Virus record (IMG/VR): IMGVR_UViG_3300037674_000896
Span: 1-29,610 of that record
From: a virus
Length of the DNA: 29,610 nt
Direction: 5' to 3' (one strand)
In this document: piece after piece, positions 4,826-29,610 of the stretch
Layout: the number at the start of each line of letters is the position of its first letter
Numbering within the stretch: the stretch's first letter is position 1
Notes under the pieces: model-generated
Seen by the model: only the letters and a program-made list of their open reading frames with translations
Databases searched by the model: none
Told to the model about the DNA's origin: nothing
Program-made: the position numbers and the translations under genes

Positions 4826-4830
4826 GGATT

Positions 4831-11501: not shown

Positions 11502-11504
11502 TTT

Positions 11505-11726: not shown

Positions 11727-11740
11727 GATAACTAAAAAAT

Positions 11741-11765
11741 AAAAGGCCTCTTCGGAGGCCTTTTT
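11741..11765 (+). terminator. Rho-independent terminator
   Basis: AAAAGGCCTC (11741-11750), loop TTCG, then GAGGCCTTTT (11755-11764) plus one more T. The GC-rich stem, stable UUCG tetraloop and U-tract are textbook. The A-rich 5' side could make it bidirectional. It closes the phosphoribosyltransferase/membrane-protein unit. Confidence 0.95.
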
Positions 11766-11768
11766 ATA

Positions 11769-11824: not shown

Positions 11825-11849
11825 ACACACTTTTCTTGGAAGGAGAAAA

Positions 11850-12941: not shown

Positions 12942-12958
12942 TATAATGAAAGGTATAT

Positions 12959-14092
12959 ATGGAAGGCTTATTTGAAAGCATTCTGACCGCAGTAGCGGTT
13001 GTTATTAATGGTATCCCTCAGGGAATTTTGGCGTTAAGCTTTGGCTTCGCAGCTTTTCCTACGGCAATAGCATTTGTAATTGGTATCATTGGTTCGGCAT
13101 TCTTTATGTCTGTCGCAACTATATCCTTTCAAGCAGAAACAATCACGTTAGCTGGTACTCTAGGTAATAATATAAAAGAAAGACTTTCTCTTATATTTTG
13201 GGGTGCCACCCTACTGTTGATTCCCTCTTTGCTTGGAATGAATGAAGCGTTAGTTAATTTTATTGGTCCCCTAGTTGTCACATCAATGATGGCTGGAGTG
13301 GGTATTATGTTAGCGAATGTTTCTGTAGATTTGTTTAAGTCAGAAAAATGGACAGGAGGAGTATCTTTAATTAGTGCTTTACTTGCTTGGTTTTGGACTA
13401 AAGACTTAGCACAAACAATTATATGGTCCGTGAGTTTATCTACACTTTTTTATGTTGCATTAAAGTTTTATGCTCCATTACGCGAAAAGTTAGGTGTCGT
13501 ACTAGAAGAAATTGTAGTAGACAGCTCACGCGAAAAGTTTACAACGGGCAACATTGAGTGGAAGTTTTGGACTAATAGAAACATCGTTATTGGTGCTTTA
13601 TCATTAGCATGTTTAAACATTGGGGCCAATATTTCATTTGGTAAAATTACTGGAAGTATTGCAGGGACTAATACAAATATAGATCATCTTGCAATTTATT
13701 CTAGTCTTGCAGATATGGGCTCAGCATTCTTTGGTGGTGGTCCAGTTGAAGCGATAATTTCTGGAACTGCGGCCGCACCTATGCCAATAGTTGCATCTTG
13801 TATTATGATGGGAATTATGGCAGTTATTCTATTAAGCAAAGCATTGCCTTTGATCGGGCAGTATGTACATAGAGCATCTATTGCAGGTTTTCTTTTTGTA
13901 TTAGGTGTATTCGTTACCTTTGCTACAAATATTGCTGGTGCTATTAGCATTGGTGGAACCTTTGCTGGACCATATGGATTTGGAGCAGCAGGAATGGTAA
14001 TTGGCGCTGCAGCATTTGTAACTGCAAAATTTAATCCTTTTTATGGTTTGCTTGCAGGATTTGCTACAAGCCTAATCATGATGGGGGCTTAA
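12959..14092 (+). CDS. Multi-span permease, probably purine/xanthine-uracil type
   Basis: This 377-aa protein is very hydrophobic, with roughly ten to eleven predicted spans and one larger hydrophilic loop at about residues 175-200. The re-entrant-like glycine-rich segments (LNIGANISFGKITGS; SSLADMGSAFFGGGPVEAI; SIGGTFAGPYGFGAAG) resemble the nucleobase-binding region of NCS2/AzgA purine permeases, which use an ion gradient. It is somewhat short for that family (usually above 400 aa). An AAAGG SD is present. Its position between a purine-nucleoside-type binding protein and a phosphoribosyltransferase supports nucleobase uptake. The family call is by motif feel and context, so another transporter class is possible. 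Confidence 0.65.
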   Translation: MEGLFESILTAVAVVINGIPQGILALSFGFAAFPTAIAFVIGIIGSAFFMSVATISFQAETITLAGTLGNNIKERLSLIFWGATLLLIPSLLGMNEALVNFIGPLVVTSMMAGVGIMLANVSVDLFKSEKWTGGVSLISALLAWFWTKDLAQTIIWSVSLSTLFYVALKFYAPLREKLGVVLEEIVVDSSREKFTTGNIEWKFWTNRNIVIGALSLACLNIGANISFGKITGSIAGTNTNIDHLAIYSSLADMGSAFFGGGPVEAIISGTAAAPMPIVASCIMMGIMAVILLSKALPLIGQYVHRASIAGFLFVLGVFVTFATNIAGAISIGGTFAGPYGFGAAGMVIGAAAFVTAKFNPFYGLLAGFATSLIMMGA

Positions 14093-14093
14093 T

Positions 14094-14684
14094 ATGGCTT
14101 GGGGAGAACCTTTTACAGATGAGTTCTACGAATTAAAAGTCGCAGGACTTACACGTAAGTTACCCAAAGTCAAAATCAATGACGAGCTCGCTATTGCGAG
14201 CTTTGTCATATTGGGTGATACAGAATTAATAGAAGAATGTGCTGAAGCAATGATTCTTCTGAATAATTTTCCAAAGAAAGATGAAATTGATATTTTTTGT
14301 ACACCAGAAGCAAAGGGAATACCGTTGGTACATACCATTGCAAGAAGGTTAGAAAAAGATTATGTCATTGCAAGAAAATCTATCAAAGGATATATGAATG
14401 ATCCTATGATAGAAAAAGTTCAATCTATCACTACAATCGGCGCACAAACACTTGTCCTTGATAGGAGTGATGTTAAGAAATTAGAAGGAAAGAGAGTAGG
14501 TATTATTGATGATGTAGTATCTACAGGGGGCTCTTTGATAGGACTTCAGACAATGTTAGAAAAAATTGATTGTTCTATTGTATGTAAAGCAGCTGTTTTA
14601 TTGGAAGAGGCTGGATATGCCAAAGGTGATATACTTTATTTAGAAAAACTCCCAATTTTTAAACCAGATGATTCCGATAATTGA
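14094..14684 (+). CDS. Phosphoribosyltransferase, adenine/xanthine (Apt/Xpt)-like
   Basis: This 196-aa type I phosphoribosyltransferase has the PRPP motif VGIIDDVVSTGGSLI (residues 136-150), the diphosphate-loop region IFCTPEAKGIPLVHTIARRL (67-86) and the ARKSIKGYM flexible-loop segment (93-101). This motif order fits adenine or xanthine phosphoribosyltransferases. It starts 1 nt after the permease stop, so its translation is probably coupled to it, and its end overlaps the oxygenase gene by 17 nt. Together with the separate enzyme at 11004 the phage would encode two different purine salvage activities, one probably for 6-oxopurines and one perhaps for adenine. Confidence 0.82.
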   Translation: MAWGEPFTDEFYELKVAGLTRKLPKVKINDELAIASFVILGDTELIEECAEAMILLNNFPKKDEIDIFCTPEAKGIPLVHTIARRLEKDYVIARKSIKGYMNDPMIEKVQSITTIGAQTLVLDRSDVKKLEGKRVGIIDDVVSTGGSLIGLQTMLEKIDCSIVCKAAVLLEEAGYAKGDILYLEKLPIFKPDDSDN

Positions 14685-16997: not shown

Positions 16998-17397
16998 AGA
17001 AGATTATGTTAGGATTAATACTTATTATAGATTAGTCCCTCATCCAGAATATCCTGATGATATTGCTAATCAATGCATAGAGATGACAACCGGACCTTTT
17101 AAAGGTGTCATTTATAAGTATGGTAAATTTCAAGTAGCCCCGCCAGATGCAGAAGATGAAAGTACTGCAAAGTATGAATATGATGTAATACTAGTTCCAC
17201 CTGAATTAGAAGGAGTTGAACACTCTGATGAAGAAGGTGAAGAATTTGAATTTATGATTGGTGAAATATTAGTGAAATTATTATGGGACAGATATTTAGA
17301 ACAAGACAACGCAGAAATGACAAACCCAATAACCTTTGTGGAGGACGATGAATCAACGGATAGAGCACCTAATACTATCTCATTTGATACACAATGA
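16978..17397 (+). CDS. Acidic protein of unknown function between uvsX and 41 (139 aa)
   Basis: ATG 16978 overlaps the uvsX 3' end by 20 nt and is preceded by purine-rich GAGGAAGAGG. The 139-aa product is strongly acidic: a beta-rich N-terminal half ([35 protein letters not shown]), a central EDE-rich region, then a helical [19 protein letters not shown] segment and a polar tail. It occupies the position of T4 gene 40 but lacks that protein's membrane segment and does not look like it. Its length is close to UvsY (137 aa), but I see no UvsY similarity. Its 3' end overlaps the helicase gene by 50 nt, an unusually long overlap. Confidence 0.75.
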
Positions 17398-18757
17398 ACC
17401 TTTTTCCCGAAAGGTTTCCCCTTATATAAGGCAAGAATATTTTGATGATAATTCAGAAAAACTTATCTTCAAACAAGTACAAGACTATATTGTTAAACAT
17501 AATAGTCTACCTACAAAGCAAAGTCTTCTAATTGATTTAGATCAACAAGAAGGTTTGCATGAGAATGAATATCAAAAAGCTACAGAAATAATTAATACCT
17601 TAGATAAACCTGAGGATAAAGATGTAACTGCTTGGCTTATTGAACAATCAGAAACCTTCTGCCAAGATAAGGCAATTTATAATGCGGTTGTTGATGCAAT
17701 TGCTATTTTAGAAGGTAACGAAAATAAATCAAATTTACAAAAAGGTGCTATTCCATCTTTATTGTCAGATGCGTTAGCAGTATCATTTGATCCCCATGTA
17801 GGTCATGATTTTATTGAAGATGCAAATGAAAGATTTGATTTTTATCATAGAATCGAAGAGAAGATTGAATTCGATCTTGAAATGTTTAATAAGATCACTA
17901 AAGGAGGGTTACCTAACAAAACCCTTAATATATGTCTTGCTGGAACTGGTGTCGGTAAGTCTCTTTTTATGTGCCATCATGCTGCTAGTTGTTTATCCAT
18001 AAACAAGAATGTTCTTTATATTACTTTGGAAATGGCTGAAGAAAGGATCGCTGAAAGAATAGATGCAAATCTTTTAGATATACCTATTAGTCAATTAGAA
18101 GAACTTTCAAGGGATATGTATCAAAAGAAAATTGATAAGATAAATGCAAAGACTAAGGGTAAAATTATTATTAAGGAATACCCCACTGCTGCAGCAAGTG
18201 CAATGCATTTTAAAAATCTTTTATCAGAATTAAAGTTGAAACGTAATTTTACTCCTGATATAATATTCATAGATTATTTGAATATATGTTCAAGTGCAAG
18301 AATCAGAACAGGAGCAAACGTAAATTCGTATACTTATATTAAATCAATTGCTGAAGAGTTAAGAGGATTAGCGGTAGAATTTAATGTTCCCATTGTATCC
18401 GCGACGCAGACCACAAGATCAGGTTTTACAAGTACAGATATTGGATTAGAAGATACTTCTGAAAGTTTTGGTTTACCAGCAACTGCTGATTTTATGTTTG
18501 CTATAATATCCTCTGATGAAATGGAAGAATTAAATCAATTACTTGTAAAACAATTAAAGAATAGATATAATGATCCCACATCTTATAAGAAGTTTATTAT
18601 AGGTATAGACAGATCTAAGATGAGATTATATGACGTAGAACAAAAGGCCCAAGATGATATTGCAGATAGTGGGCAAGATGATGAACCATTATTTGATCAA
18701 TCCACCGGCAATAGAATGCGCAATAAAGTAGACTTTGGTACTTTTCAATATGAATGA
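17348..18757 (+). CDS. 41: Replicative DNA helicase (T4 gp41-like, DnaB family)
   Basis: This 469-aa protein (T4 gp41 475 aa) has a helical N-terminal domain (about 1-130) and a RecA-like ATPase domain. Walker A LAGTGVGKS is at residues 197-205, YITLEMAEERIAERID at 224-239 is the DnaB-family catalytic-glutamate region, and Walker B IIFIDYLN is at 305-312. SATQTTRSG gives the sensor segment. It forms the hexameric 5'-3' helicase of the phage primosome. ATG 17348 is preferred over the in-frame TTG at 17336 because GGAGG (17339-17343) sits just before it. The start lies inside the acidic unknown gene, implying coupled translation. Confidence 0.95.
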   Translation: MNQRIEHLILSHLIHNEPFSRKVSPYIRQEYFDDNSEKLIFKQVQDYIVKHNSLPTKQSLLIDLDQQEGLHENEYQKATEIINTLDKPEDKDVTAWLIEQSETFCQDKAIYNAVVDAIAILEGNENKSNLQKGAIPSLLSDALAVSFDPHVGHDFIEDANERFDFYHRIEEKIEFDLEMFNKITKGGLPNKTLNICLAGTGVGKSLFMCHHAASCLSINKNVLYITLEMAEERIAERIDANLLDIPISQLEELSRDMYQKKIDKINAKTKGKIIIKEYPTAAASAMHFKNLLSELKLKRNFTPDIIFIDYLNICSSARIRTGANVNSYTYIKSIAEELRGLAVEFNVPIVSATQTTRSGFTSTDIGLEDTSESFGLPATADFMFAIISSDEMEELNQLLVKQLKNRYNDPTSYKKFIIGIDRSKMRLYDVEQKAQDDIADSGQDDEPLFDQSTGNRMRNKVDFGTFQYE

Positions 18758-19367
18758 TTTAGATTTTGTTAAAAATTCATTAGGATGTATAAACGAAGCC
18801 TTTAAAGAATTTAAGAGTTCTTATAATACATTGGAATTCGGCTTCCGGAAACCTATTTCTCATTGGCATGTCTGCGCCAACAGAATGGAAGAAATATTAG
18901 AAGAAGAATTAGATTTTTCTTGTTATGTTACTATACGAAAAGATAGAAGCCATGCTTTATATGAAATGACCTTTGATGGAGCCGCTAATGTTCCCGAAGA
19001 ACATATTTCAGAATCTGAATTAGAAATAACAATTAACTTATCACCAGAATTTTATACGCAACAACTATCTATTCCGGACGATACTTGGGAAAACTATAAA
19101 CAACAACTTACCCTCACTTTCATTCATGAATTAACACATTCTTTACAATTAGATGACGGCAAAAAGAAAAAAGATAATGATTATTTTTCAAGCCCATTTG
19201 AAATAGATGCGTATAGTTCTGAACTCGCCTTTGATATGTTTCTTTATAATAAAGAAGAAAAAACTTGCGATTCGTATGCAAGGTATGCTACAATAGATTC
19301 TAAGGTTTCTAATAAAATGAAAACCTTGGCAAAAGAGAAATATCAGTATCTTAAAAATACTAAATAG
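18750..19367 (+). CDS. Putative HExxH zinc metallopeptidase
   Basis: This 205-aa protein has an HELTH zinc-binding helix (His126, Glu127, His130) in TLTFIHELTHSLQ. Glu151 in PFEIDAYSSELAF is a good candidate for the third ligand in the usual downstream helix. Upstream strands LEITINLSPEFY and a Lys-rich insert (GKKKKDND) complete a small gluzincin-like domain. ATG 18750 overlaps the helicase end by 8 nt. An in-frame TTG at 18735 is less likely. No signal peptide is visible, so it would act in the cytoplasm, perhaps on a host protein or during head maturation. The exact peptidase family is not recognised. It is the last gene before the packaged-protein-like block. Confidence 0.7.
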   Translation: MNDLDFVKNSLGCINEAFKEFKSSYNTLEFGFRKPISHWHVCANRMEEILEEELDFSCYVTIRKDRSHALYEMTFDGAANVPEEHISESELEITINLSPEFYTQQLSIPDDTWENYKQQLTLTFIHELTHSLQLDDGKKKKDNDYFSSPFEIDAYSSELAFDMFLYNKEEKTCDSYARYATIDSKVSNKMKTLAKEKYQYLKNTK

Positions 19368-19393
19368 AGTATAATTCTAATAATTGGAGAAGA

Positions 19394-19420
19394 ATGGATT
19401 ATACGGTAGAGAAAAAATGA
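19394..19420 (+). CDS. Possible 8-codon leader peptide
   Basis: ATG 19394 has a good GGAGAAG SD (19386-19392), encodes MDYTVEKK and stops in an ATGA overlap with the next gene's ATG 19417, which itself has only a weak SD. It may deliver ribosomes to the downstream gene. It is too short to assign by coding evidence. Confidence 0.3.
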   Translation: MDYTVEKK

Positions 19421-20922
19421 AAACATATACAACTTTCATGGCTCCAATTGAAACTAAATCGGAAATTAGAACCCTTTTAGAGAGAGTAACACCAGAACTT
19501 AAAAAACAAGTGCTTGATCAAATCGAAATGATTGACAAGGACGAGGTGTTAAAAAATGTATTAGAGGCCATTCAAAAAGATGTGATGGGCAACATGCTAA
19601 GAGTGAAAGCAGCTGACGCCAAAATCACTATGAATGTAGATCTGTTTATTGATTCTATAATATCTATAATTAATAAAACAGGTGATAGTGCAGAAGACCA
19701 AGTTACTTTTCTTAAAGACCTACTTGATGGCAAAGTAATAGATTGTATCAAAATGGTCAAAGATAGTTTGAATAAAGTAGTTAAAATGGATTCATATGTT
19801 AAGACAAAGAGTCCATTATGGTCCAAGGTTAAAGATAAATTAATCGCTTTAGATATAAAAATTGATAATCAAAATATAGGTCCTGGTGAAATTCTTTATA
19901 TAATATCAACACCAGGAGGCAAAAAAGGCGATGAAGAGAATAAAGGTGATTGTTGGTTAGCACAAGGTGTTAATGTTGAATTAAAGAAAGATGGAGGAAC
20001 CTTTTCAAAACCAACTAAATTTGCTGATGCCAGATTAGCATGGATTAATGCATTTAAAGACTTAGGAAGAGATTTAAGTGGTGCAGATGCAGATACAATG
20101 GGCCTTGGTGGAACAAGTATATACGGCGAATCAAATAAAGGTGGTGGTATAGCTAATGCATTATCCATAGGAAGTAAAGACTATACAACATTGTATATGG
20201 ATAACAAAGGCGTTACTCAAAGACTAGCAGACAAAGCCTGTGAATCATTATATGCTAAAGTTTGTGCTATAGCTTGTCCTAATAACGGCGCGCTTCCATA
20301 TACATTTAATAAAACAGTAAAAAATGGATTAACTGACCCTAATGAATTTGTAAGACAATGGAATGCTAATGCCTTACATGATTATAAAGTACATGGTTGG
20401 GATTACTTAACATTATTTAATGCTGATTCAGGTGATACAATTTCATTTATGAGTGCACAGGATTTATATAAGTCTAAACAATGGAATGTGGGTTCTGAAT
20501 GGATGTTAAGATGGACTGGAGGCGGAGGTTTCGGAGGTACTGGGTCTTCAACAAGAGTTTATGCTGGCACATTTAAAAATATAGCTACATATGATCCTGG
20601 TGATACCGATTTTGAGAAAAAGGTAGCAGAAAAAAATAATATAAGAAAAGCTTTAGAGCACGCTTTCGGACAATTAAGCAACAAGAAAAATTCAGGAAAA
20701 ATAAAAGCGGCATTTAGTAAAGCTAATGATTTAAAAGGTCCTATGAACGATCTTTCAAAGAATAACGAACCTAAAGATTTTAAACCTCTTGTAGGTCAAA
20801 TAGGACAAAAAATAAGTGACTATTTTCAGGCTAAGAATGAACTTAATTTTGGGAGAGATAAATCAGATAGAGATCTAGGAAAAAGCTTCGCGGATATGAA
20901 ACGGAAATTGGGAGTAAGGTGA
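19417..20922 (+). CDS. Uncharacterised protein with internal-head-protein-like N-terminus (501 aa)
   Basis: I chose ATG 19417 rather than the in-frame TTG at 19384. The start then reads MKTYTTFMAPIE, close to the MKTYQEFIAE capsid-targeting peptide of T4 internal proteins. Residues about 15-110 are helical (TPELKKQVLDQIEMIDKDEV and following). The centre (about 130-390) is a mixed domain with Gly-rich loops, for example a GGGGFGGTGSSTRVYAGTF segment, WxxF/Y aromatic patterns and several cysteines. The C-terminal 110 residues are charged and helical. No family is recognised. It opens a run of seven genes joined by ATGA, GTGA or TAATG overlaps, so it is probably coexpressed with them as head-associated protein. 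Confidence 0.75.
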   Translation: MKTYTTFMAPIETKSEIRTLLERVTPELKKQVLDQIEMIDKDEVLKNVLEAIQKDVMGNMLRVKAADAKITMNVDLFIDSIISIINKTGDSAEDQVTFLKDLLDGKVIDCIKMVKDSLNKVVKMDSYVKTKSPLWSKVKDKLIALDIKIDNQNIGPGEILYIISTPGGKKGDEENKGDCWLAQGVNVELKKDGGTFSKPTKFADARLAWINAFKDLGRDLSGADADTMGLGGTSIYGESNKGGGIANALSIGSKDYTTLYMDNKGVTQRLADKACESLYAKVCAIACPNNGALPYTFNKTVKNGLTDPNEFVRQWNANALHDYKVHGWDYLTLFNADSGDTISFMSAQDLYKSKQWNVGSEWMLRWTGGGGFGGTGSSTRVYAGTFKNIATYDPGDTDFEKKVAEKNNIRKALEHAFGQLSNKKNSGKIKAAFSKANDLKGPMNDLSKNNEPKDFKPLVGQIGQKISDYFQAKNELNFGRDKSDRDLGKSFADMKRKLGVR

Positions 20923-22145
20923 AACAATATAAACAATTTCTTACTGAAGCTTCTGGAAAAAATCTTCATATGGAACATCTCGAAGATGAGGTGTTAAATG
21001 GTGGGGTTAATGGTACTAGAGGTGCTATTGATTTTTTAAGATCTTTAAGAAACATGTTAGCCGGTCATAATAAAGAAGCAGTTAATGTTACTGTTAAATG
21101 GGATGGTGCTCCTGCTATATGCGCCGGTATTCATCCTAATGGAAAATTCTTTGTTGATTATAAGTCAATGAGACGTCCATGTTTTATTCAAGCCGATGTT
21201 GATGAACATTTCAGTGGTGGCCCCCTTCATTCTAAAATGAGTGCTTTATTAGAACATTTACCTAAGTTAAAGATTCCAGGTAATATTTTTCAAGGTGATG
21301 TTCTTTGGACAGAGGATAAAGATAAGAAGATACAGACAATTGATAAGGAAAGACAGATTACGTTTACACCTAATACGATAACTTATGCCGTTCCTTTAAA
21401 TACAGAATTAGCAAATGCCATAATTAGAGCAAAGATTGGAATTGTTTTTCATACAACATACAGAACAGCGGGACAAGAAGACTTAGCAGATTTGAAAGCC
21501 GAGTTTGGTGCAGATGTAAATCAATGGACATCACATAAGGATGTTTGGGCTGTTAATGCGGACTTTACAGATGTAAGTGGAACAGCAACATTTACAAAGG
21601 CAGATGAAAAGAAAGTAACAGATATGTTATCTCAGTTAGGAAAAGATTTTAATAAAGTCAATGGTCGTTTTCTTGATGGTATCAAAGATGATAATATATT
21701 AAAAGTTCATATTAAGACCTATATAAATTCTAAAGTCAGAGAAGGTGAATTTATAGAAGAAAGGTTAGCAAGAGATTGTGTAAAATTTATTAAAGCTAAG
21801 TTAGATAAGGATGTTGCAAAGTTAAAATCAGAAAAAGGTCGTACACGAAAACAAATGACTGTTGATGAATACTTAAAGAAATTAAATGGTAATATAGATC
21901 AGATAGGTACTGTTTTTCGTATAATGGCTTTAATAAATAATATTAAGCTATATATTGTAGAGAAATTAGAAGAGGTAAAAGGTTTAACTTCTACCTTTAT
22001 TAAAACCTCAACAGGTTATAAAGTAACAAAACCAGAAGGGTTTGTTGCTATTGACTCATTTGATTCTGGTAAGGGATTAAAATTAGTTAACAGAATGGAA
22101 TTTAGTAGAATAAATTTTACCGCAGAAAAGGATTGGGACCAATGA
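20919..22145 (+). CDS. Ligase-like covalent nucleotidyltransferase with capsid-targeting-like N-terminus
   Basis: This 408-aa protein starts at GTG 20919 (GTGA overlap, GGAG SD) with MKQYKQFLTEA, strikingly like the T4 internal-protein targeting peptide MKTYQEFIAEA. The motifs of the ligase/capping nucleotidyltransferase superfamily follow: Lys60-Trp-Asp62-Gly63 in VTVKWDGAPAI (motif I, nucleotidylated Lys), IFQGDVLW at 123-130 (motif III-like, Asp in place of the usual Glu), IGIVFHTTY at 173-181 (IIIa-like), PEGFVAI at 372-378 (motif IV) and LKLVNR at 387-392 (motif V). An RNA or DNA end-joining or NMP-transfer role is inferred; the long helical insert between IIIa and IV is unusual. Similar WDGAPA proteins occur in marine T4-likes as uncharacterised proteins. 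Confidence 0.65.
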   Translation: MKQYKQFLTEASGKNLHMEHLEDEVLNGGVNGTRGAIDFLRSLRNMLAGHNKEAVNVTVKWDGAPAICAGIHPNGKFFVDYKSMRRPCFIQADVDEHFSGGPLHSKMSALLEHLPKLKIPGNIFQGDVLWTEDKDKKIQTIDKERQITFTPNTITYAVPLNTELANAIIRAKIGIVFHTTYRTAGQEDLADLKAEFGADVNQWTSHKDVWAVNADFTDVSGTATFTKADEKKVTDMLSQLGKDFNKVNGRFLDGIKDDNILKVHIKTYINSKVREGEFIEERLARDCVKFIKAKLDKDVAKLKSEKGRTRKQMTVDEYLKKLNGNIDQIGTVFRIMALINNIKLYIVEKLEEVKGLTSTFIKTSTGYKVTKPEGFVAIDSFDSGKGLKLVNRMEFSRINFTAEKDWDQ

Positions 22146-22408
22146 AAAATTACAAAGAATTCTCAAAGCGCGACCTGAAAGAATCTAAGTATTCTGATCA
22201 GTTGATTGATGCATTACGTGATTGCATTGATTCCGCGCCTGATAGAACTAAAAATAAACTAGCACAAGTATATGAGGACTATGTTCATAAGTTTATGAGA
22301 CGTCCACAAAAATTACCATATATGTTACAAGGGTTCTTAGATGCTATCGAAGAAGGTACCGATGCAAGAATAGAATGGAAGGGTGGCGGAGATAGGAGCG
22401 ACTGGTGA
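22142..22408 (+). CDS. Small protein with internal-head-protein-like N-terminus (88 aa)
   Basis: ATG 22142 (ATGA overlap with the ligase-like gene, AAAGGA SD) is preferred over TTG 22133. The product begins MKNYKEFSKRDLKES, again like the T4 internal-protein targeting peptide, with a possible processing site after LKE. The remainder is a helical, charged small domain (QLIDALRDCIDSAPDRTKNK, then KLPYMLQGFLDAIEEG) ending in a glycine-rich tail. The family is not recognised. Confidence 0.7.
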   Translation: MKNYKEFSKRDLKESKYSDQLIDALRDCIDSAPDRTKNKLAQVYEDYVHKFMRRPQKLPYMLQGFLDAIEEGTDARIEWKGGGDRSDW

Positions 22409-23154
22409 AAACATATAAAGAATATACAGAATCTCCAGTTAATGAAGTTGATTCATCCGGCATAGATATGTATGATAATAAAAGAAAAGAATCAGAGAGG
22501 AAGAAGAAGGCTCGGGAAACTCCTTCTTCTCCAGAAACTCAAGCTAAGCTTAAAAAGGTAAGAGCAGGGGAAACTGTTGATGAATATGTGGGATCAGTAG
22601 AGTATAAGAAAAGAATGAAGAAAAAGGGTTATCCCGAACATAAGAAAGACAGGTCTTCTGGTTATGTTGAAGATATTAAGAAGACTTTCGCTGAAATTAC
22701 AACTGGTCTTTTAAACCGCGCCGCAGGTGCAGCAAAGAAGGATGCCGCAACACAAAGAGACGCGCAAGATTGGGCGACGAGAGTGAAAGGTAAAGGACAT
22801 GCTTTTGGTGCTGCAGAAGCCGGCAAAAAAGCAGCAAAGAGAGAGAAACAAGCTGGAAAATTCAGTGCTGCCGCCGATGTCAAACAACGGAATACAGCCT
22901 TTAAAAAGGAAGGTGTCATGACTGGATATGTTGATGAACTTTCAAAAGGCTTATTACAACGCGCGCAACAATCAGCTAAAGCGAAAGCTGGACAACAAAG
23001 AGCCGTATCGGCTAAAGCCGCTTCAAGAGTTGGTGACACTAGTCAACCACCAGGACAAAATCTTAAATCGAAACGTGCAGATTTCAAAGCAGCAAAAAAA
23101 GATTATCAAGCATTTAAATTTAAGAAAGCAGCAGACAAGAAAGAAGAGGAATAA
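22405..23154 (+). CDS. Lys/Ala-rich basic protein, probable internal or core head protein (249 aa)
   Basis: GTG 22405 (GTGA overlap, AGGAG SD) starts MKTYKEYTES, close to the T4 internal-protein targeting peptide. The protein is rich in Lys, Ala, Gln and Arg with little hydrophobic core, as in DNA-associated head proteins. It contains a degenerate repeat: GYVED...GLLNRA...QR (86-118) and GYVDELSKGLLQRA...QR (174-199), separated by Gly/Lys/Ala-rich linkers. Such proteins could sit with DNA inside the capsid or scaffold the prohead core. No enzymatic motif is visible. The minus-strand frame over the same bases is a compositional shadow. Confidence 0.72.
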   Translation: MKTYKEYTESPVNEVDSSGIDMYDNKRKESERKKKARETPSSPETQAKLKKVRAGETVDEYVGSVEYKKRMKKKGYPEHKKDRSSGYVEDIKKTFAEITTGLLNRAAGAAKKDAATQRDAQDWATRVKGKGHAFGAAEAGKKAAKREKQAGKFSAAADVKQRNTAFKKEGVMTGYVDELSKGLLQRAQQSAKAKAGQQRAVSAKAASRVGDTSQPPGQNLKSKRADFKAAKKDYQAFKFKKAADKKEEE

Positions 23155-23363
23155 TGTCTAAAGATAAACATGATTATTTTGGTGAAGGCCCATTTTCAGG
23201 ACCACAAAGCGATCTAGTCGCTTCGGTTATGAGAATAGCAGAAAAAGCAGAAAAAGAAAAGCCTGAAGAAGAAGAAGTAAAAGGTTTTGAAAAAATGTCT
23301 AACGACAAATTAAATCAGTCTGTTAAAGACGCATATCTCGATAAGGTTCGAGGGGGAATGTGA
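23154..23363 (+). CDS. Small acidic protein of unknown function (69 aa)
   Basis: ATG 23154 overlaps the previous stop as TAATG, and the end overlaps the GTG of the next gene. The 69-aa product has a Gly/Pro-containing N-terminus (DYFGEGPFSGPQSDLV), a Glu/Lys-rich helix (RIAEKAEKEKPEEEEVKGFE) and a short C-terminal helix ending KVRGGM. No family is recognised. Its tight overlaps on both sides argue that it is real and coexpressed with the head-protein-like block. Confidence 0.68.
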   Translation: MSKDKHDYFGEGPFSGPQSDLVASVMRIAEKAEKEKPEEEEVKGFEKMSNDKLNQSVKDAYLDKVRGGM

Positions 23364-24805
23364 TTTCATTTACTCAATTACGGGAAGGGTCGTTAAAAAC
23401 AGCAGTATTTGCTTTTGGTCGGTTTAATCCTCCCACAATTGGACACGAGATTCTAGTTAATAAAGTAACTACAGTTGCTAAACGCAATCGTGGTGATGCT
23501 TTTATATTTCCTAGTTCCACACAAGATTCTAAAAAGAATCCATTAGATTATAAAGAAAAGATTAAATGGATGAAAAAAATGTTTAAACCGAAAGGCGAAG
23601 ACATTTTTAAGTATTCCGAAGATCAACCTAAAGAAGTACTGAAATCTCTTTCATTATTACATGATGAAGGATATGAAGAAGTTATTATGGTTGTAGGAAG
23701 TGATAGAGTAAATCAATTTAAAAAACTATTGCCTCAATATAATGGTGTTGATGGTAAAACACATGGTTTTTATGATTTCAAAAAAATAGAAATAGAAAGC
23801 GCTGGTGAAAGAGATCCAGATGCAGATGATGCTACAGGAATGTCAGCATCTAAATTAAGATCACTTGCTGTTGATGGTGATTTTGATAAGTTTAAAGAAG
23901 GGTTACCAGATATCTTATCTGATAAAGATAAACGTTCATTATATCAATCATTACGAAAAGGTATGAGACTATCCGTTATTGAATCCCAAATGAAAGAAAA
24001 ATTGGGTCCTGGTGCACCAATTGGAAAAATGAAAAATAGTGTATCGGATCCTAAAAAGGCAATGGGAAAATTTGTATCTAAAACTGCTCCACCAAGAGCA
24101 AACGATGATGCAGGAATAGATGATATAATGCAAAAAGCAGATTCAGGAGTTAAACCATCGAGCCCATCTACTAAAATAAAAAATAAGCAGACGCAGTTAA
24201 AGCCACCATCGTCTTCATCAGTAGATAAAGAATCATTATGTATGGATAAACTATATTATGAAGATGATGTTTATCATTTAGAAACTGAAACGAAAGAATT
24301 ATTTAAGTATTTGGAACAATTCGCTACAACTAAACCCAAACAAGAATATTATAAACGTGCTTTAAAAGAAACAGAAGAATTTTGGAGTAAATATGAAATG
24401 GCATTCGGTGGATCTGTTAAAGTGGCACTATGGGAAATATCCCGATTAAGAGAACATACAAAGAAAGCTGCTGATTTTATTACATTGTTAGGTGAAGATG
24501 TTGATTATAACGTAGCAAACCTTTCTTATATGAATGAACGAATAGATGAATTGCCTACAAATAACATAGATATTAATAAACCAGTAAGTTCTAAATTACA
24601 AGAAATACTTGGTTTAAAGGAATGGCACAAGGATAGAGCCAAAGAAGGTCAACAGTTAGAAATCGGAACCGATAAATATAGACAGTACCTTGTAGATTTG
24701 ACTCCGGGAGAGGAGTTTAAATCAGAACAAAATAAAAAACGCGAACAACAAGCGGAAAGAGTCAGTAAGATGATTTCCAAAATTATTGCCAACAGGAGCA
24801 AATAA
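23360..24805 (+). CDS. Cytidylyltransferase/NMNAT-like nucleotidyltransferase with C-terminal extension (481 aa)
   Basis: The GTG start overlaps the upstream stop. After an N-terminal MISFTQLREGS (possible targeting/processing peptide), residues 14-200 form a nucleotidylyltransferase domain of the HxGH superfamily: FGRFNPPTIGHEILV (19-33; the motif is T-x-G-H), the IMVVGSDRVNQF segment (109-120) and the second signature GMSASKLR (160-167). NMN adenylyltransferases and related cytidylyltransferases share this layout. Residues about 200-300 are a Pro/Ser/Lys linker, and the last 180 residues are a helical domain of unknown role (YYEDDVYHLETETKELFKYL onward). It lies in the packaged-protein-like block, so the enzyme might be carried in the virion. 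The substrate is not determinable by eye. Confidence 0.8.
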   Translation: MISFTQLREGSLKTAVFAFGRFNPPTIGHEILVNKVTTVAKRNRGDAFIFPSSTQDSKKNPLDYKEKIKWMKKMFKPKGEDIFKYSEDQPKEVLKSLSLLHDEGYEEVIMVVGSDRVNQFKKLLPQYNGVDGKTHGFYDFKKIEIESAGERDPDADDATGMSASKLRSLAVDGDFDKFKEGLPDILSDKDKRSLYQSLRKGMRLSVIESQMKEKLGPGAPIGKMKNSVSDPKKAMGKFVSKTAPPRANDDAGIDDIMQKADSGVKPSSPSTKIKNKQTQLKPPSSSSVDKESLCMDKLYYEDDVYHLETETKELFKYLEQFATTKPKQEYYKRALKETEEFWSKYEMAFGGSVKVALWEISRLREHTKKAADFITLLGEDVDYNVANLSYMNERIDELPTNNIDINKPVSSKLQEILGLKEWHKDRAKEGQQLEIGTDKYRQYLVDLTPGEEFKSEQNKKREQQAERVSKMISKIIANRSK

Positions 24806-26688
24806 TGGATTGGTCAAAATATTATCCCGCGAATTACTCGGCGATAACAGAAGCAGACATTGAGATGATAAGGGAGAAACGAAAGTTAGAAACTCCTGTT
24901 GAAGACAATACTAATGATGAGCCAGATGACGGCGAAGGAATGGATAAAGTCCAACCTAAAGCGCTAAAGAAAAAGTTTGATAAACGTAAAGATAAAGATA
25001 TCGACAATGATGGCGATACAGATGATTCTGATGAAGTTATTCACGCTAAAAGAAAAGCTATTGGTAAAAATATTGCTAAGCAAGATGAATCTAAAGGCGA
25101 AATGTGTCCGGAAGAGTGTTGTGGTGTACCAGTTAGTGAATGTACATGTCCACCAGATTGTCCACATTGTGATTGTAATGCTATTAATGAAATGTCTAAG
25201 GATGAATATAAAGATGATAATATGAAAAGACAACAGGCGAAGAAGAAAAAGAAAGATGAGCCTGAAGAAACAGAATTTTCCAAACAACAGGATACAGTTA
25301 CAGATATGGAATCAGTCTCTCATGGAAAACCAGGAGTAATTGATATCTATAAAGAAACATTAGCATTAGCAAAAGTAACAAGAGGTAGAGATAAGTTGTC
25401 TCTTGAAGGCGCAGCCAAGTTAATAAAGCAACGTTCTTATGATAAGTTAGCACCTTACTTAGATAGTATGGAAGAAGAGCCACGACAATCTGTTTTAATG
25501 ATCTTAATGAATGATCAAAAGATTGCAGATAAAGTCATGAGGAAGATGAAGACAGAAAAGTATCATGGTTGGTTGATGTCTGAAATGCATCAGAAGTATG
25601 ATGGCCTTACATGGGCAGAGATTGGGGAACGTTTAATTAGAACACCAGAACGTAGATTAGTTTCTCTTGCATATGCTACTAAGATGGGAACAATTGATGC
25701 ACCTTCACCTGAAGTCCAAAAATTAGCAGATGATTGTTCGTTGGAAGATTTAGAAAAAGCAGCCGGGGAAATTATCGGTGAAGATGATGAACTAGAAGAG
25801 GCAAAATCAGATGCGGAAAAGATTGCTGATAAACAAGCTAGCAATAATAAGATAAAACAAAAGTCATCTAATCAGGACAATCAGGCAGACGCAAAAAAAG
25901 CAGATAAAGCTCGTGAAACACAAGCTAATACAAATGATAAAGAACAGGAAAAACGACAGGCTCAATCAGATAAAGAAAGAGCAGCAAAGAAAAAACAACA
26001 AGCTGCTGCCCGTGCTAGAGAAACTGATGATCCTACAGTCAAGAGAGACGGCGGTCCAACTACAATGCGTTCAAAAATTGCAAATATAGCATTTTCTGCA
26101 ATGGAAGACGCCGAAGATGTTCCTGAAACTATTGATGCAAGACGTAGAGTATTTAAAGAAAAAATTAGAAAGCTTGCTTATGAGAAGGCCAAAGAATTAA
26201 TTGCAAAGCAACAATCAGTGCCTGATCCAACTTATGATGAAGCTAAAAAAGAAGAAGAAGAGGATTCTGAAGAAATCGGATCCAAAGTTAAAGAGACTGG
26301 TAAGGTCGATAACAAAATAAAGATGGAGCCAACAGTGAAAGAAAGTACAGGTGTTTCCTTTGTGCGGAAGTATAAGAATAAAATGTCAGCGGAACAGCGA
26401 GATGCAACTCTCGAAAATAATATACTTGAATATCTAGCAGGTGGTAGTTCTTTTGGTCGTGTAAAAAGGGCAGTACCTGTTGGTGCCGAATTTGCTTCTG
26501 ATGATTCGCCAGCTTCAGCTACTTCAATTGCTCGTGCATTGAAGTGTAGTCCAATGCAAGTACAAAAGTTATTGGATGATATGTTAGAAGCAGGACAGAT
26601 ATCACGTGTAGGCGATGCATATTCATATGCTTCCCCTAGACCAGCTGATCCACAGGGTGAAAAAGAAGAGTCCGGACTAGAAGTATAA
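24805..26688 (+). CDS. Large charged protein with EF-hand-like loop, eight-cysteine cluster and C-terminal winged helix
   Basis: This 627-aa protein starts in a TAATG overlap. The N-terminus MDWSKYYPANYSAITEADI has an ITE|A sequence that suits prohead-protease cleavage. Residues 63-76 read DKDIDNDGDTDDSD, a calcium-loop-like (EF-hand/dockerin) pattern. Residues 101-124 contain eight cysteines (101, 105, 106, 113, 115, 119, 122, 124) plus His121, likely binding metal. A helical domain spans about 165-330, then a long Lys/Gln/Ala/Glu low-complexity region about 330-470. The last 75 residues (SATSIARALKCSPMQVQKLL, then MLEAGQISRVGDAYSYASP) look like a winged helix. I infer a structural or internal head protein; the function is unknown. 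Confidence 0.75.
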   Translation: MDWSKYYPANYSAITEADIEMIREKRKLETPVEDNTNDEPDDGEGMDKVQPKALKKKFDKRKDKDIDNDGDTDDSDEVIHAKRKAIGKNIAKQDESKGEMCPEECCGVPVSECTCPPDCPHCDCNAINEMSKDEYKDDNMKRQQAKKKKKDEPEETEFSKQQDTVTDMESVSHGKPGVIDIYKETLALAKVTRGRDKLSLEGAAKLIKQRSYDKLAPYLDSMEEEPRQSVLMILMNDQKIADKVMRKMKTEKYHGWLMSEMHQKYDGLTWAEIGERLIRTPERRLVSLAYATKMGTIDAPSPEVQKLADDCSLEDLEKAAGEIIGEDDELEEAKSDAEKIADKQASNNKIKQKSSNQDNQADAKKADKARETQANTNDKEQEKRQAQSDKERAAKKKQQAAARARETDDPTVKRDGGPTTMRSKIANIAFSAMEDAEDVPETIDARRRVFKEKIRKLAYEKAKELIAKQQSVPDPTYDEAKKEEEEDSEEIGSKVKETGKVDNKIKMEPTVKESTGVSFVRKYKNKMSAEQRDATLENNILEYLAGGSSFGRVKRAVPVGAEFASDDSPASATSIARALKCSPMQVQKLLDDMLEAGQISRVGDAYSYASPRPADPQGEKEESGLEV

Positions 26689-26697
26689 ACAAACAAT

Positions 26698-27441
26698 ATG
26701 AATGTAGTGATTGGAAACGGTGAAAGTCGTAAGGCTTTTAATCTTAATTTATTATTGGATCATACAACATATGGATGTAATGCGATGTATAGGGATTGGA
26801 ACCCTACACATCTTATATGTATAGACAATAAGATGCTGCATGAAATAGTAACATCACAGTATCCAAAGTTACATCATTGTTGGTTTAGAAATTTTCAGTT
26901 ACTGGATCCTGATATGTATCCAGTTTTCAGGTCAACAGTTACGCCTGATATTGAAGTAATAGAGAATAAGAATACAGGATATAAATTCGCCTATTACGGA
27001 CAAGAAATAAGTAGAGTTTATCATGATGATACTCATACAATGGATCTGCTAGATAAACCGGTTCATTATTTTACATGGGTATCAGAACAAGATAAAATAG
27101 ATGTGGTGGACGATTTAAAACATATACCAATGTTAGATTCAGGACCACTCGCAACTTGGATATGTTGTGAACAAGAAAAACCGGAAACGGTTTATTTAAT
27201 GGGTTTTGATTTTAACATAAATGATGGAAAAGTAAACAATATATATAAAGACACAGATTGTTATGCTCCTAATTATGCATTGCCAGTGAAAGCGGCAGGG
27301 TGGATTCAGAATTTTGAAGTTATGTTTACTGAACATTTTCCTGAAGTCAATTTTGTACATATTCAGGAAGAAGAGTGCTTTAATAAAGAAATTCCAAACA
27401 TAGATACAATATCTATGGATGAGTTTAAAGAGTTGTTATAA
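26698..27441 (+). CDS. Rossmann-like protein of unknown function (247 aa)
   Basis: The N-terminus MNVVIGNGESRKAFNLNLL gives a glycine-rich nucleotide-type loop (IGNGESR), followed by TYGCNAMYRDWNPTHLICID. The middle has DSGPLATWICC and VYLMGFDFN. This pattern, a GNGxS loop, a YGCNA strand and a late GFDF strand, recalls DUF115/MptE-like or sialyltransferase-like proteins, which act on sugar nucleotides or pterin diphosphates. No catalytic residue can be assigned. No good SD is seen; the gene starts 9 nt after the previous stop. Its own stop overlaps the late promoter for the structural gene downstream. Confidence 0.7.
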   Translation: MNVVIGNGESRKAFNLNLLLDHTTYGCNAMYRDWNPTHLICIDNKMLHEIVTSQYPKLHHCWFRNFQLLDPDMYPVFRSTVTPDIEVIENKNTGYKFAYYGQEISRVYHDDTHTMDLLDKPVHYFTWVSEQDKIDVVDDLKHIPMLDSGPLATWICCEQEKPETVYLMGFDFNINDGKVNNIYKDTDCYAPNYALPVKAAGWIQNFEVMFTEHFPEVNFVHIQEEECFNKEIPNIDTISMDEFKELL

Positions 27442-27444
27442 ATA
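27437..27444 (+). promoter_or_regulatory. T4-type late promoter TATAAATA
   Basis: An exact TATAAATA overlaps the stop codon TAA (27439-27441) and lies 24 bp before the ATG at 27469, which has an AGGAG SD. It introduces the virion gene group. Confidence 0.75.
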
Positions 27445-27468
27445 TTTAAAAATTAATAGGAGAAATTC

Positions 27469-28038
27469 ATGCCTCTATGGGGAAAAGCCGCTGCTGGTAC
27501 TCAGGCACAAAAACCAAAATGGGTTGGTACCACAGAAGGTGCACAATACAATAAACAAGATATCTATGGCGCTAACAATGGCTGGGTTATTAATACTAAA
27601 GCCAGTAAAAATGCTTCAGCTGCCCCAGAGATTCTAGTTGCAATGGGCGAACTTGGTACCGCTCTTGCCGCACCAACTGTTACATCAATGAGATTTACTG
27701 CATCAGCAATCACAGGTGGATCAAGAACAATTGCTGTTCAGGTCACTTGGGATGAAAGAGTTACAGTTACTGGAACACCACAAGTTGCTATTGCAAACGG
27801 TAACCAAGGAACTGGATCTGGTCGAGGACCACATACAGCTTCATACGCTTCAGGTTCTGGAACAAACAGACTCACTTTCAGCGTAGCAAGTCAAACAGTT
27901 GCAACAGATGACGTTCTTACATTGGGTGGATCTAATGTGGCACTAAATAGTGGTACAATTAAAGATACAACTGATGGATCAACTGTAGCATTGTTAGTTC
28001 TTTCAGGATTAACTGCGGTAACATTGACAGTAACTTAA
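27469..28038 (+). CDS. Virion structural protein with Ig-like beta domain (189 aa)
   Basis: The product begins MPLWGKAAAGTQAQKPKWV, an N-terminus common among marine T4-like virion proteins, with a GANNGWVINTKASKNASAAPEILVAMG-type docking segment in which nearly every residue is small or polar. Residues about 68-189 form an Ig-like repeat module (PTVTSMRF, TVTGTPQVAIANG, ASYASGSGTNRLTFSVAS, VATDDVLTLGG), the type seen in bacterial and phage surface proteins. It is likely a decoration or tail-surface protein. A strong AGGAG SD 6 nt before the ATG and an upstream late promoter support late expression. Confidence 0.75.
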   Translation: MPLWGKAAAGTQAQKPKWVGTTEGAQYNKQDIYGANNGWVINTKASKNASAAPEILVAMGELGTALAAPTVTSMRFTASAITGGSRTIAVQVTWDERVTVTGTPQVAIANGNQGTGSGRGPHTASYASGSGTNRLTFSVASQTVATDDVLTLGGSNVALNSGTIKDTTDGSTVALLVLSGLTAVTLTVT

Positions 28039-28053
28039 TAGTTAACTGATATT

Positions 28054-28278
28054 ATGGAATATGTGGAAAATATAAATGTTGCTATAGTATTACAGCAACT
28101 ACAGTCATACAAAGCTGAGAAAGAAAAACTTACCCAAAAACTTTCTCAGCTTAATGACGAAGCAGAAAAAAGTAAACGTGGTATACATAGTTATGACGGC
28201 GCTATACAAGCCCTTGATGCATTACTACAAACAGCTGAATCTAAAGAGATTGATGTTCCTGAATTGGAAGAAAATTAA
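28054..28278 (+). CDS. Small coiled-coil protein (74 aa)
   Basis: The product is almost entirely a heptad-patterned helix (NVAIVLQQLQSYKAEKEKLT, then KLSQLNDEAEKSKRGIHSYD and ALDALLQTAESKEI), so a coiled-coil oligomer is likely. It lies between two virion-type genes and its stop overlaps the next start (TAATG), so it is probably a small structural or assembly factor. No SD is obvious. No family is recognised. Confidence 0.7.
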   Translation: MEYVENINVAIVLQQLQSYKAEKEKLTQKLSQLNDEAEKSKRGIHSYDGAIQALDALLQTAESKEIDVPELEEN

Positions 28279-29120
28279 TGGCAGATAAAACGATACCCGC
28301 TTTAAATACACATGATAGTCCTACAGCGGAAGACTTATTAATTATAGTTGATGATCCTTCGGGTAATCCTGTAAATAAGAAAATACGTGTAGACACATTA
28401 CTATCAGCACTTTCTACAGATACAACAACTAGAAGTGTAGCAAATAAGGTTCAATCTAGAGCTGATACTAATATTGCAAGAGATTTAAATTTACGAAATT
28501 CTAAAACTGTTTTACAGCCAGAAGTATTGAAAGGTGAACAGGATGATATGACTGTCATTTTGGGGACCTTAGATATGGCAGAAAATTCTGTATGGCATGT
28601 AGAGATTGATGGAACATCTTCTTCAGCAAATGATACATTTAAATGGTGGAGAGATGGAAATACTCAGACCGGTGCAGCAACTGTCACTATTGACGGAACT
28701 ACGCAAGCATTAGCAAATGGTGTAAGTATTAAATTTGATGGTGTTACAGGACACAAAGTTACAGATAAATGGCAAATTGTCGGTTTAATAGAATCCAGAA
28801 TTGATTTTCAGGGAAGTATTTTAGTTGAAGATAGTGTTCCGGAAAATGGTTCTTTTACCAGTACCTTTTCAGAAACTGGTAATTTGCAATTAGAATCTGG
28901 AATAGATATGGCGTTTGAAGATGGTACAGAAAAAGATATGTACATATCTGCAAATACCACAGTAATAAGATTTGTGGGTGGTCTACAATTAGGTGAATCC
29001 GCGGATCCAGTTGGATTTTTTGGTACTACACCAGTATCAGCCAATGCAACATTTGTCGCAGGTGCTAGCACCGCGGCACATATTATAGCCGAATTAGAAA
29101 GATTAGGTTTAGTATCATAA
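28278..29120 (+). CDS. Tail-fibre or virion-surface protein with shared N-terminal head (280 aa)
   Basis: The N-terminus MADKTIPALNTHDSPTAEDL continues into IVDDPSGNPVNKKIRVDTLL, a short docking module that recurs at the start of the gene at 29224 and resembles the first residues of many marine T4-like fibre proteins. A beta-rich middle (about 85-200, e.g. VWHVEIDGTSSSANDTFKWW) follows. The C-terminus GFFGTTPVS...AAHIIAELERLGLVS is typical of fibre proteins that repeat per-unit Gly-Phe-Phe-Gly motifs and end in a short helix. It is likely an adhesin or fibre component. The stop codon overlaps a late promoter. Confidence 0.75.
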   Translation: MADKTIPALNTHDSPTAEDLLIIVDDPSGNPVNKKIRVDTLLSALSTDTTTRSVANKVQSRADTNIARDLNLRNSKTVLQPEVLKGEQDDMTVILGTLDMAENSVWHVEIDGTSSSANDTFKWWRDGNTQTGAATVTIDGTTQALANGVSIKFDGVTGHKVTDKWQIVGLIESRIDFQGSILVEDSVPENGSFTSTFSETGNLQLESGIDMAFEDGTEKDMYISANTTVIRFVGGLQLGESADPVGFFGTTPVSANATFVAGASTAAHIIAELERLGLVS

Positions 29121-29123
29121 ATA
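29116..29123 (+). promoter_or_regulatory. Probable T4-type late promoter CATAAATA
   Basis: CATAAATA overlaps the upstream stop TAA (29118-29120), the same arrangement as at 10976 and 27437. It would give the next gene a 5' leader of about 95 nt. Confidence 0.55.
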
Positions 29124-29130
29124 GTTTTTG

Positions 29131-29211
29131 GATGTCTGAGGAAGACCCTTCGCAAGAGTGAGCGATTCTCAGCATGATTTTAACTGGTGATGAGTCCCAT
29201 CACGACGCCAG
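29131..29211 (+). promoter_or_regulatory. Structured 5' leader of a late virion gene
   Basis: Foldable elements: GTCT/AGAC (29134-29137 with 29143-29146), or alternatively CTGAG/CTCAG (29136-29140 with 29168-29172); GTGATG/CATCAC (29187-29192 with 29198-29203) with outer CTG/CAG. CCTTcGC (29147-29153) can pair with GCAAGG (29211-29216), covering the SD AGGAG. It shares GGAAGACCC (29140-29148) and TGAGCGA (29159-29165) with the leader at 11769-11824. Unlike the endolysin hairpin, the late promoter lies upstream, so late mRNA keeps the structure. Confidence 0.45.
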
Positions 29212-29223
29212 CAAGGAGATAAG

Positions 29224-29610
29224 ATGGCTGATAAGAAAATAACGGCTTTAACTGCTGCATCAGAAGCAGCAAGTGAAGACCTTTTACATATAATTGATGA
29301 TCCTTCAGGATCTCCAGTTAACAAAAAGTTAACTGTTAAATCATTTGTAGGTAATGTAACACATACAATTACCGGAACCGCACAAGCAACAACAGAGGTA
29401 ATTCATAAAACTCTACACACCGCTAATTTAGCCCCATCGACTGCAAATGTTTTTGATAGTATTGTAACATCAGATGTTACAGTTGATGTTAAAGCAACAG
29501 GCTTAAATCAAGGTAATGTTGCTGTATTAACAGCTTCTTCAGGAACAGCAAAAATCCATGATGGAAACGTTGCTTTTACTTCAGAAGTGTCAGCTGTTAA
29601 AGGTGTTCTA
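29224..29610 (+). CDS. Tail-fibre or virion-surface protein (3' partial)
   Basis: ATG 29224, with SD AGGAG at 29214-29218, opens a frame that runs 129 codons to the window edge without a stop. It begins [20 protein letters not shown] and continues [19 protein letters not shown], clearly paralogous over about 45 residues to the gene at 28278. After the shared head the sequence diverges into a Thr/Val/Ala-rich beta-type region ([20 protein letters not shown]). It is likely a second fibre or adhesin using the same attachment module. Confidence 0.75.

Follow-up and report, generated by a model that had tools for sequence, protein, structure and literature searches.

Why should adjacent genes of a phage, with unrelated products, open with variants of one short peptide that resembles the capsid-targeting sequence of the T4 internal proteins? 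The question is raised by virus record IMGVR_UViG_3300037674_000896, a stretch of 29,610 bases analysed as a whole (hereafter the window), in which such a cassette begins at position 19417 on the plus strand; its genes are named below by their start positions. The answer favoured here is that the cassette very probably specifies proteins that are packaged in the head and marked by T4-type capsid-targeting leaders, with probable enzymes among them. Because the products of coupled genes bear a T4-type head address label, the phage probably packages them and injects them with its DNA. By the replication-type genes 5' of the cassette and by its protein relatives, the window is assigned to a T4-like marine phage.

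Under the proposed mechanism, a leader of about 9-14 residues, of the form M-K-x-[F/Y]-x-x-[F/L/Y]-x-x-E, would serve as the capsid-targeting signal. Through its two aromatic residues it would bind the scaffolding core during prohead formation, with the result that the protein is enclosed, and a gp21-type protease would then cut after L/I/V-x-E and free the mature protein inside the head. The mature protein would remain with the packaged DNA until infection begins, when it would be ejected into the new host cell. Enzymes delivered in this way would work at time zero; our best guess at their job on entry is nucleotide, nicotinamide adenine dinucleotide (NAD) or nucleic-acid-end chemistry.

The leader and its excess over chance

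Five of the six named genes (19417, 20919, 22142, 22405 and 23360) begin with M-x-x-[FY]-x-x-[FYL]. The initial annotation had described adjacent genes opening with MKxYxxF-like variants, and both that description and its reading frames and N-termini hold. Gene 19417 (19417..20922, 501 residues) opens with MKTYTTFMAPIE (19417-19452). It is followed by 20919 (20919..22145, 408 residues), a DUF6267 protein (PF19782, Pfam E 6e-90) with the leader MKQYKQFLTE/A (20919-20948; the slash marks the proposed cut), and by 22142 (22142..22408, 88 residues), which has no assigned function and carries MKNYKEFSKRDLKE/S (22142-22183). The lysine-rich 22405 (22405..23154, 249 residues) starts MKTYKEYTES, its leader being MKTYKEYTESPVNE/V (22405-22446). 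Gene 23360 (23360..24805, 481 residues), which encodes a HIGH-type cytidylyltransferase resembling nicotinamide mononucleotide (NMN) adenylyltransferases, has MISFTQLRE/G (23360-23386), with F at position 4 but L at position 7. Between 22405 and 23360 lies a small coupled gene (23154..23363, 69 residues) without a leader of the usual form. Three of the genes, 20919, 22405 and 23360, use GTG start codons. Every gene from 20919 onward overlaps the end of the preceding one, so the genes are probably translationally coupled. The codons of the leader differ synonymously from gene to gene (TAT/TAC/TTT/TTC), and the shared element is therefore the peptide and not a DNA element.

A regular expression for the leader was fixed beforehand and then applied to shuffled sequences and to virion proteomes. 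In the window plus seven reference phages it matched 29 of 1,599 open reading frame (ORF) starts against 2 of 5,515 internal methionines. As a control, residues 2-16 of every candidate start were permuted 300 times with composition kept. The search across the genome and its relatives that had been suggested in the initial annotation found the motif enriched at gene starts: across ten genomes, 44 of 2,033 ORFs matched, compared with a shuffled mean of 7.0 and a shuffle maximum of 15. In the window alone the count was 4 of 36, against a shuffled mean of 0.09 and a maximum of 2 in 300 shuffles; 22142 falls outside the expression because its Glu sits further on. T4 served as positive control, with 5 of 265 ORFs matching against 0.94 shuffled. 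IPII and IPIII are among these five, while IPI is missed because its Glu is residue 19. Elsewhere in T4, a 54-residue reading frame on the minus strand (18966-19130) opens with MKTFKEFIKEDM, a near capsid-targeting sequence.

Targeting residues, proposed cleavage site and head protease

The first 10 residues of T4 IPIII suffice for packaging; residues 4 and 7 are the most important for targeting and residues 8 and 10 for processing, and gp21 cleaves after L/I-x-E (PMC9026906). The two aromatic positions of the leader, 4 and 7, coincide with the targeting residues of T4 IPIII. Residue use was surveyed in one representative per cluster of leader-bearing proteins with an aromatic at position 4 (35 of the 48 clusters described below). 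The expression that defined these clusters itself demanded the aromatic at 4, restricted residue 7 and required a later Glu, leaving other positions free. Among the 35 representatives, residue 7 was F, L or Y in 31, residue 8 was L or I in 15, and residue 6 was E or Q in 18. Four leaders of the window fit (L/I)-x-E, namely LTE in 20919, LKE in 22142, LRE in 23360 and ITE in 24805, and VNE in 22405 is a near-fit.

The initial annotation had proposed identifying the gp21 homolog and the cleavage consensus on known head proteins. Searches of 17 records located a gp21 gene in 12: all nine reference phages including T4, and G001, G002 and G003, the longest of the seven relatives' records. The DUF6267 proteins of G001 and G002 are 98% identical to that of the window. 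In gp23 of six relatives (G001, Melnitz, HTVC008M, DLP_6, C48C1 and S-PM2), L-x-E is kept, by eye, at the place of the T4 cut, for example LLFE/SSPTN and FLSE/AAPTN. The interval between portal and gp21, which in T4 holds core genes 67 and 68, contains a leader-like start MKTWNQFKSQLPIHEA in DLP_6 and MRTFKELREA in C48C1, the latter with an upstream GTG start that the annotators left unused.

One body with different leaders, and one leader on different bodies

DUF6267 protein 20919 matched 269 phage records, which by name include Synechococcus (188), 'Cyanophage' (47) and Prochlorococcus (20); the closest is Methylophilales phage Melnitz, at 43.9% identity. At the nucleotide level, megablast of bases 17,000-29,610 returned six records with a best coverage of 7%, a search from which very near records were possibly left out. 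Leaders of DUF6267 proteins were compared across 104 loci, which represent 42 distinct stretches, a single record being present in some cases as overlapping copies. The start of the DUF6267 body lies close to N[TL]H[LM]EHLED. In the near relatives of the window the leader ahead of it reads MK[QS]Y[KR]QFL[TAVI]E, and in a group about 40% identical it reads MFSFKGFFTKE, with variants. Melnitz has MLTLINFSKYITE, Stenotrophomonas phage DLP_6 has MMKFTQFLAE, and C48C1 has MMLDFKNFITE. The proteins of S-CAM9, S-SZBM1, S-PM2 and S-SM1 have no such leader, and gp87 of S-CREM2 (locus L181, 8890-9777) is a divergent, shorter, leaderless relative (KIDGIPAVV); the DUF6267 proteins of the cyanophages S-SZBM1, S-SM1 and S-CREM2 differ in this from that of the window. 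Judged from these sequences, the leader is modular, one DUF6267 body occurring with differing leaders or with none. The gene for S-CREM2 gp87 adjoins long tail fibre genes and lies far from the cytidylyltransferase gene.

The converse is seen as well. The proteins behind the leaders of the window have no Pfam or PHROG family in common, as the initial annotation had said of their bodies, except for phrog_455, which covers DUF6267 and the cytidylyltransferase as separate parts; this span suggests that the two act in one pathway. Near relatives have further cassette genes with leaders, namely MKKYKEFITEASG on a 113-residue protein and MKNYKEFTEE on a 341-residue protein in L092, and MKSFLQYLEE on a HAD-like protein in L093. 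With a looser regular expression, 103 of 2,005 distinct ORFs had a leader, against 38 of 7,938 internal methionines. Their bodies fall into 48 BLAST clusters, 37 of which hold a single protein, and many of these must be chance. Bodies that could be named include an adenylate kinase (PF00406, 1.6e-45), a zeta-toxin-like P-loop kinase (1.7e-11), a HAD-like protein (PF03767 at 5.1e-5, below the cut-off; polynucleotide-kinase PHROG at 3.4e-9) and the cytidylyltransferase.

Directly 5' of the cassette, positions 18735-19367 of the window encode a protein with a HELTH zinc-protease motif (weak match to NF038122, E 0.004). Close to the corresponding place, the near relative G001 has a gene with a leader (MKTYKDLTLEG).

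Virion proteomes of relatives

Evidence that a leader-bearing cytidylyltransferase is present in virions comes from published mass spectrometry of relatives. The enzyme was detected in virions of S-SM1 (T4-GC190; PMC3037559), S-CREM2 (ORF154, gp154; PMC10665884), S-SZBM1 (_140; PMC9146016) and S-SCSM1 (ORF91; PMC9602691, record MK867354). These proteins start MKKFSAFLNEA, MKNFSSFLTEA, MRFRQFIIEA and MKSFLQFLKEA, respectively, and are 36-45% identical to 23360 over about 190 residues, the catalytic domain. The cytidylyltransferase of S-PM2 is leaderless and, in one frame with it, comes after a DUF6267 C-terminal half; according to PMC3037559 it was not detected in the S-PM2 virion. The leaderless DUF6267 proteins of S-SZBM1 and S-CREM2 likewise went undetected, which fits a role of the leader in packaging. 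In S-SZBM1, _139, which corresponds to 24805 in position, is in the virion table.

The expression fixed beforehand matches three S-CREM2 proteins, and all three were detected in the virion: gp6, a SAM hydrolase (MKDFDSFLEE), gp14, an APH-like kinase (MKRFDAFLTEE), and the cytidylyltransferase gp154. A leader score was also trained on 36 hand-picked leaders of other phages. S-CREM2 has 219 proteins, of which 52 were detected, and 24 detected structural ones were set aside, leaving 195. Among these, a score of at least 8 was reached by seven proteins, five of them detected, against 23 detected of the 188 others (Fisher p=0.00075), by a score built after the N-termini of S-CREM2 had been seen. 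S-SZBM1 has 218 proteins, 30 of them detected, and again 24 were set aside. At thresholds of 8, 7, 6 and 5, p ranged from 0.00075 to 0.0018 in S-CREM2 and from 0.09 to 0.12 in S-SZBM1. Information is carried by high scores alone. A similar expression matched three reading frames of S-SCSM1, one of which, _91, is annotated as a virion protein.

Taken together, the published virion proteomes agree in part with the presence of a targeting leader. The earlier suggestion of a set of packaged enzymes stands to the extent that the leader is modular like those of T4 IPI-III and that leader-bearing relatives of 23360 occur in the virions of four cyanophages.

Other leader-like sequences appear in the same phages. 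A family with a strong leader, MK[ST]F[KN][QS]F[LM]SES, includes S-SZBM1 _191 (L186; record 122311-122628), S-SCSM1 _30 (L219, 716-1036) and a reading frame of S-CAM9 (85876-86184). It lies near terminase genes in S-SZBM1 and S-SCSM1, and is not listed among virion proteins in two virion studies. S-CREM2 has a second virion-detected leader-like group far from its cytidylyltransferase gene, gp12-gp15 (L180, 10310-13331) and gp6 (3837-5081), comprising the kinase gp14, the small proteins gp13 and gp15, and the SAM hydrolase gp6. In S-SCSM1, two small annotated virion proteins, _93 and _97 (L206, 21627-21836 and 23122-23307), end in the leader-like stretches KKRTFKEFLEYIE and PKTYKQWVKSLDSK, perhaps a C-terminal form of the targeting signal.

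Identity of the putative cassette enzymes

The initial annotation named two putative nucleotidyltransferases. That assignment finds support for 23360, which scores 26.3 bits against PF01467 (CTP_transf_like; cut-off 21), matches phrog_3041 at 7e-63, and contains FNPPTIGH, the T-x-G-H form of the HxGH-type motif. It scored 22.3 bits against the NMN-adenylyltransferase equivalog TIGR00482, short of the cut-off of 112.45, and a PDB sequence search returned chance-level rows alone. The other protein, 20919, was placed by no profile or fold search. In DUF6267 the motif KWDGAPA is invariant in 13 aligned sequences, with KIDG in the divergent S-CREM2 gp87, and KWDG suggests a putative covalent nucleotidyltransferase; KWDG and PEGFV might be read as ligase motifs. 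A comparison with T4 Rnl2 by hhalign gave no match, nor did a PDB profile search. The AlphaFold model of DUF6267 has a mean predicted local distance difference test (pLDDT) of 62.5, and Foldseek found no match under E 0.001. A fold assignment by VIA-align was rejected, since all rows listed had Z below 7 and were helical-bundle-like.

For 19417, E158, D178 and E188-x-K190 are invariant in nine aligned homologs, and by eye this E...D...ExK pattern suggests a resemblance to the PD-(D/E)XK nuclease signature. The protein itself has no Pfam, NCBIfam or PHROG match and no tblastn match in the phage collection at E 0.01, and none of the nine homologs has a convincing Pfam match. Its model, with a pLDDT of 57.5 and largely below 50 in the conserved acidic part, is too poor to judge the fold. 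A PADLOC search for defense systems with seven proteins gave no match.

Points against packaging, and other explanations

A number of observations weigh against a packaged, leader-marked cassette. The last named gene, 24805 (24805..26688, 627 residues), which encodes an acidic protein 3' of the cytidylyltransferase gene and starts MDWSKYYPANYSAITEA, has only a loose leader, MDWSKYYPANYSAITE/A (24805-24852); its ITE supports the membership proposed for it in the initial annotation, its lack of an aromatic at position 4 does not, and it counts as a weak member. The Glu12 proposed for 19417 lies within PIE, which is not (L/I)-x-E, and the DUF6267 leader MFSFKGFFTKE also lacks that motif, while the DUF6267 protein of HTVC008M starts MYNDLLVE, without the aromatic pattern. 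No gp21 gene was found in five of the 17 records, namely the window (29.6 kb) and four contigs of 60-105 kb. S-PM2 (1 of 249) and DLP_6 (1 of 231) show no excess with the regular expression. In S-SZBM1 the expression fixed beforehand matched only _191 and _192, both undetected, and a score of at least 8 was reached there by those two and by the detected _140 (1 of 3, p=0.09); as a general predictor of virion proteins the score was rejected, the area under the curve being 0.60 in S-CREM2 and 0.55 in S-SZBM1. The two other S-SCSM1 matches, _30 (MKTFKQFMSES) and one at an internal start of _104, have no virion annotation. In S-CREM2 gp12, annotated as Cas9-like, the leader-like stretch runs from residue 17, after a CTG codon, and not from the start. 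The authors of the S-CREM2 and S-SCSM1 studies warn, moreover, that enzymes of this kind could come from contamination of the CsCl-purified material (PMC10665884, PMC9602691).

The same contamination concern would be part of an explanation in which the N-termini are ordinary amphipathic, lysine-rich starts, due to an effect on translation or folding or to descent from one duplicated gene, with no bearing on the capsid and with the mass-spectrometry detections as contaminants. The S-SZBM1 table, with one of three leader-bearing proteins, leans this way. Shuffling that keeps composition nevertheless yields 7.0 matches where 44 are observed, the bodies fall in many unrelated clusters (48 by the loose expression, some by chance), and the same kind of leader-bearing enzyme recurs in virion studies of four phages, so that this explanation appears highly improbable. 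The leader could instead be a core-binding (scaffold) address alone, its proteins helping to build the head or to condense DNA and delivering no enzyme activity, which may hold for part of what T4 IPIII does. T4 IPIII mutants are slower in head assembly (PMC9026906), and the lysine-rich 22405, which has no convincing family match, could bind DNA. We think it quite unlikely that this is the whole account, given that the leader stands on a cytidylyltransferase, an adenylate kinase, a zeta-like kinase and a SAM hydrolase, and that DUF6267 occurs both with and without it.

Packaging could also be confined to the cytidylyltransferase and the proteins 3' of it, with DUF6267 and 19417 acting in the infected cell and their leaders being remnants. 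The leaderless DUF6267 of S-SZBM1 (_141) is absent from the virion table of PMC9146016, although its neighbors _139 and _140 are in it; the leaderless S-CREM2 gp87 is likewise absent from that of PMC10665884; and the leader of 19417 has no good cleavage site. The conservation of MK[QS]Y[KR]QFL[TAVI]E on DUF6267 throughout the near-relative group, and the occurrence of other leader wordings on this body in Melnitz, DLP_6 and C48C1, speak against remnants, and we regard this restricted form of packaging as unlikely.

Relation to known systems

The leaders are closest to those of T4 IPI, IPII and IPIII (MKTYQEFIAE; MKTFKEFTST...ITE). Like these, they have aromatics at positions 4 and 7 and a putative motif for cleavage after Glu, and they stand on bodies that are not related to one another; a gp21-type protease is encoded both by T4 and by relatives of the window. 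The T4 proteins are small and basic (PMC9026906), whereas those of the window are larger and some are enzyme-like. The genes ipII and ipIII adjoin each other beside the lysozyme gene, with ipI apart near tRNA genes, whereas the window has one coupled cassette after replication genes. T4 Alt, an ADP-ribosyltransferase, is likewise a packaged and injected enzyme, with a seven-residue N-terminal propeptide (PMC9026906). It differs in enzyme class and in its N-terminus, MMELITELFDE or MELITELFDE, which lacks the MKxYxxF wording.

Head-protein propeptides cut after Glu by a head protease are also found in phage P1, in DarA and Hdf. Ejected head proteins of the phiKZ/SPN3US type have propeptides cut after Glu by the head protease (described for phiKZ), at a different motif, S/A-x-E (PMC9026906). 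In the cyanophages S-CREM2, S-SZBM1, S-SCSM1 and S-SM1, a related cytidylyltransferase carries a leader of the same form. Virion enzymes of cyanophages include the cytidylyltransferase/NMN-adenylyltransferase-like protein, SAM hydrolase and APH-like kinase, and the available text of their papers names no targeting leader. Cyanophage virions have time and again been reported to contain packaged enzymes, which the authors could not distinguish from contaminants (PMC10665884, PMC9602691). According to a review of T4 head assembly, T4-like phages may make general use of the capsid-targeting sequence (PMC9026906). Among open-licence PMC papers, that review was the only one found on capsid targeting together with cyanophages; none was found on capsid targeting with pelagiphages, and none naming DUF6267. 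Two surveys, on NAD and conflict systems in phages (PMC9503650, PMC7824862), treat packaged enzymes and, in the text available, not this cassette.

The mechanism would be that of T4. What is new is that it would reach into marine T4-like phages and carry enzymes encoded together in a single coupled cassette, that one and the same body has acquired or lost its leader in different phages, and that virion proteomes bear this out in part. More tentatively, and as a possibility that we would not yet favor, the capsid-targeting peptide may be a general shipping label in marine T4-like phages of several hosts, with a coupled, fast-changing cassette delivering a pre-made enzyme kit that acts on host defenses or RNA before phage expression. 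Such a kit might comprise nuclease-like and ligase-like proteins, a cytidylyl/adenylyltransferase, a polynucleotide-kinase-type phosphatase and P-loop kinases, with the label coming and going among their genes. With a readable label at the N-terminus, proteins that ocean phages ship in the head could be recognized by a sequence rule, the question of cargo would become testable by N-terminomics, and many uncharacterized proteins would stand out as effectors of the first minute. The T4 leader is itself a tool for loading foreign proteins into heads, and natural variants would widen that tool.

Other features of the window

Sought as a late-promoter motif, ATAAATA has eight matches in the window, below the number expected by chance and all on the plus strand; one (27438) lies directly 5' of the gene at 27469. 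As a late promoter 5' of the cassette, CTAAATA at 19360, with a matching place in G001, was considered and rejected as too short to use.

Upstream, positions 11004-14684 encode a PnrA/Bmp-type ABC transporter substrate-binding protein (PF02608, 1.2e-45) and, after it, a membrane-permease-like protein with no Pfam match, and a gene with a phosphoribosyltransferase domain flanks this transporter pair on each side. The region is a possible nucleoside uptake and salvage set, which would be odd for a phage.

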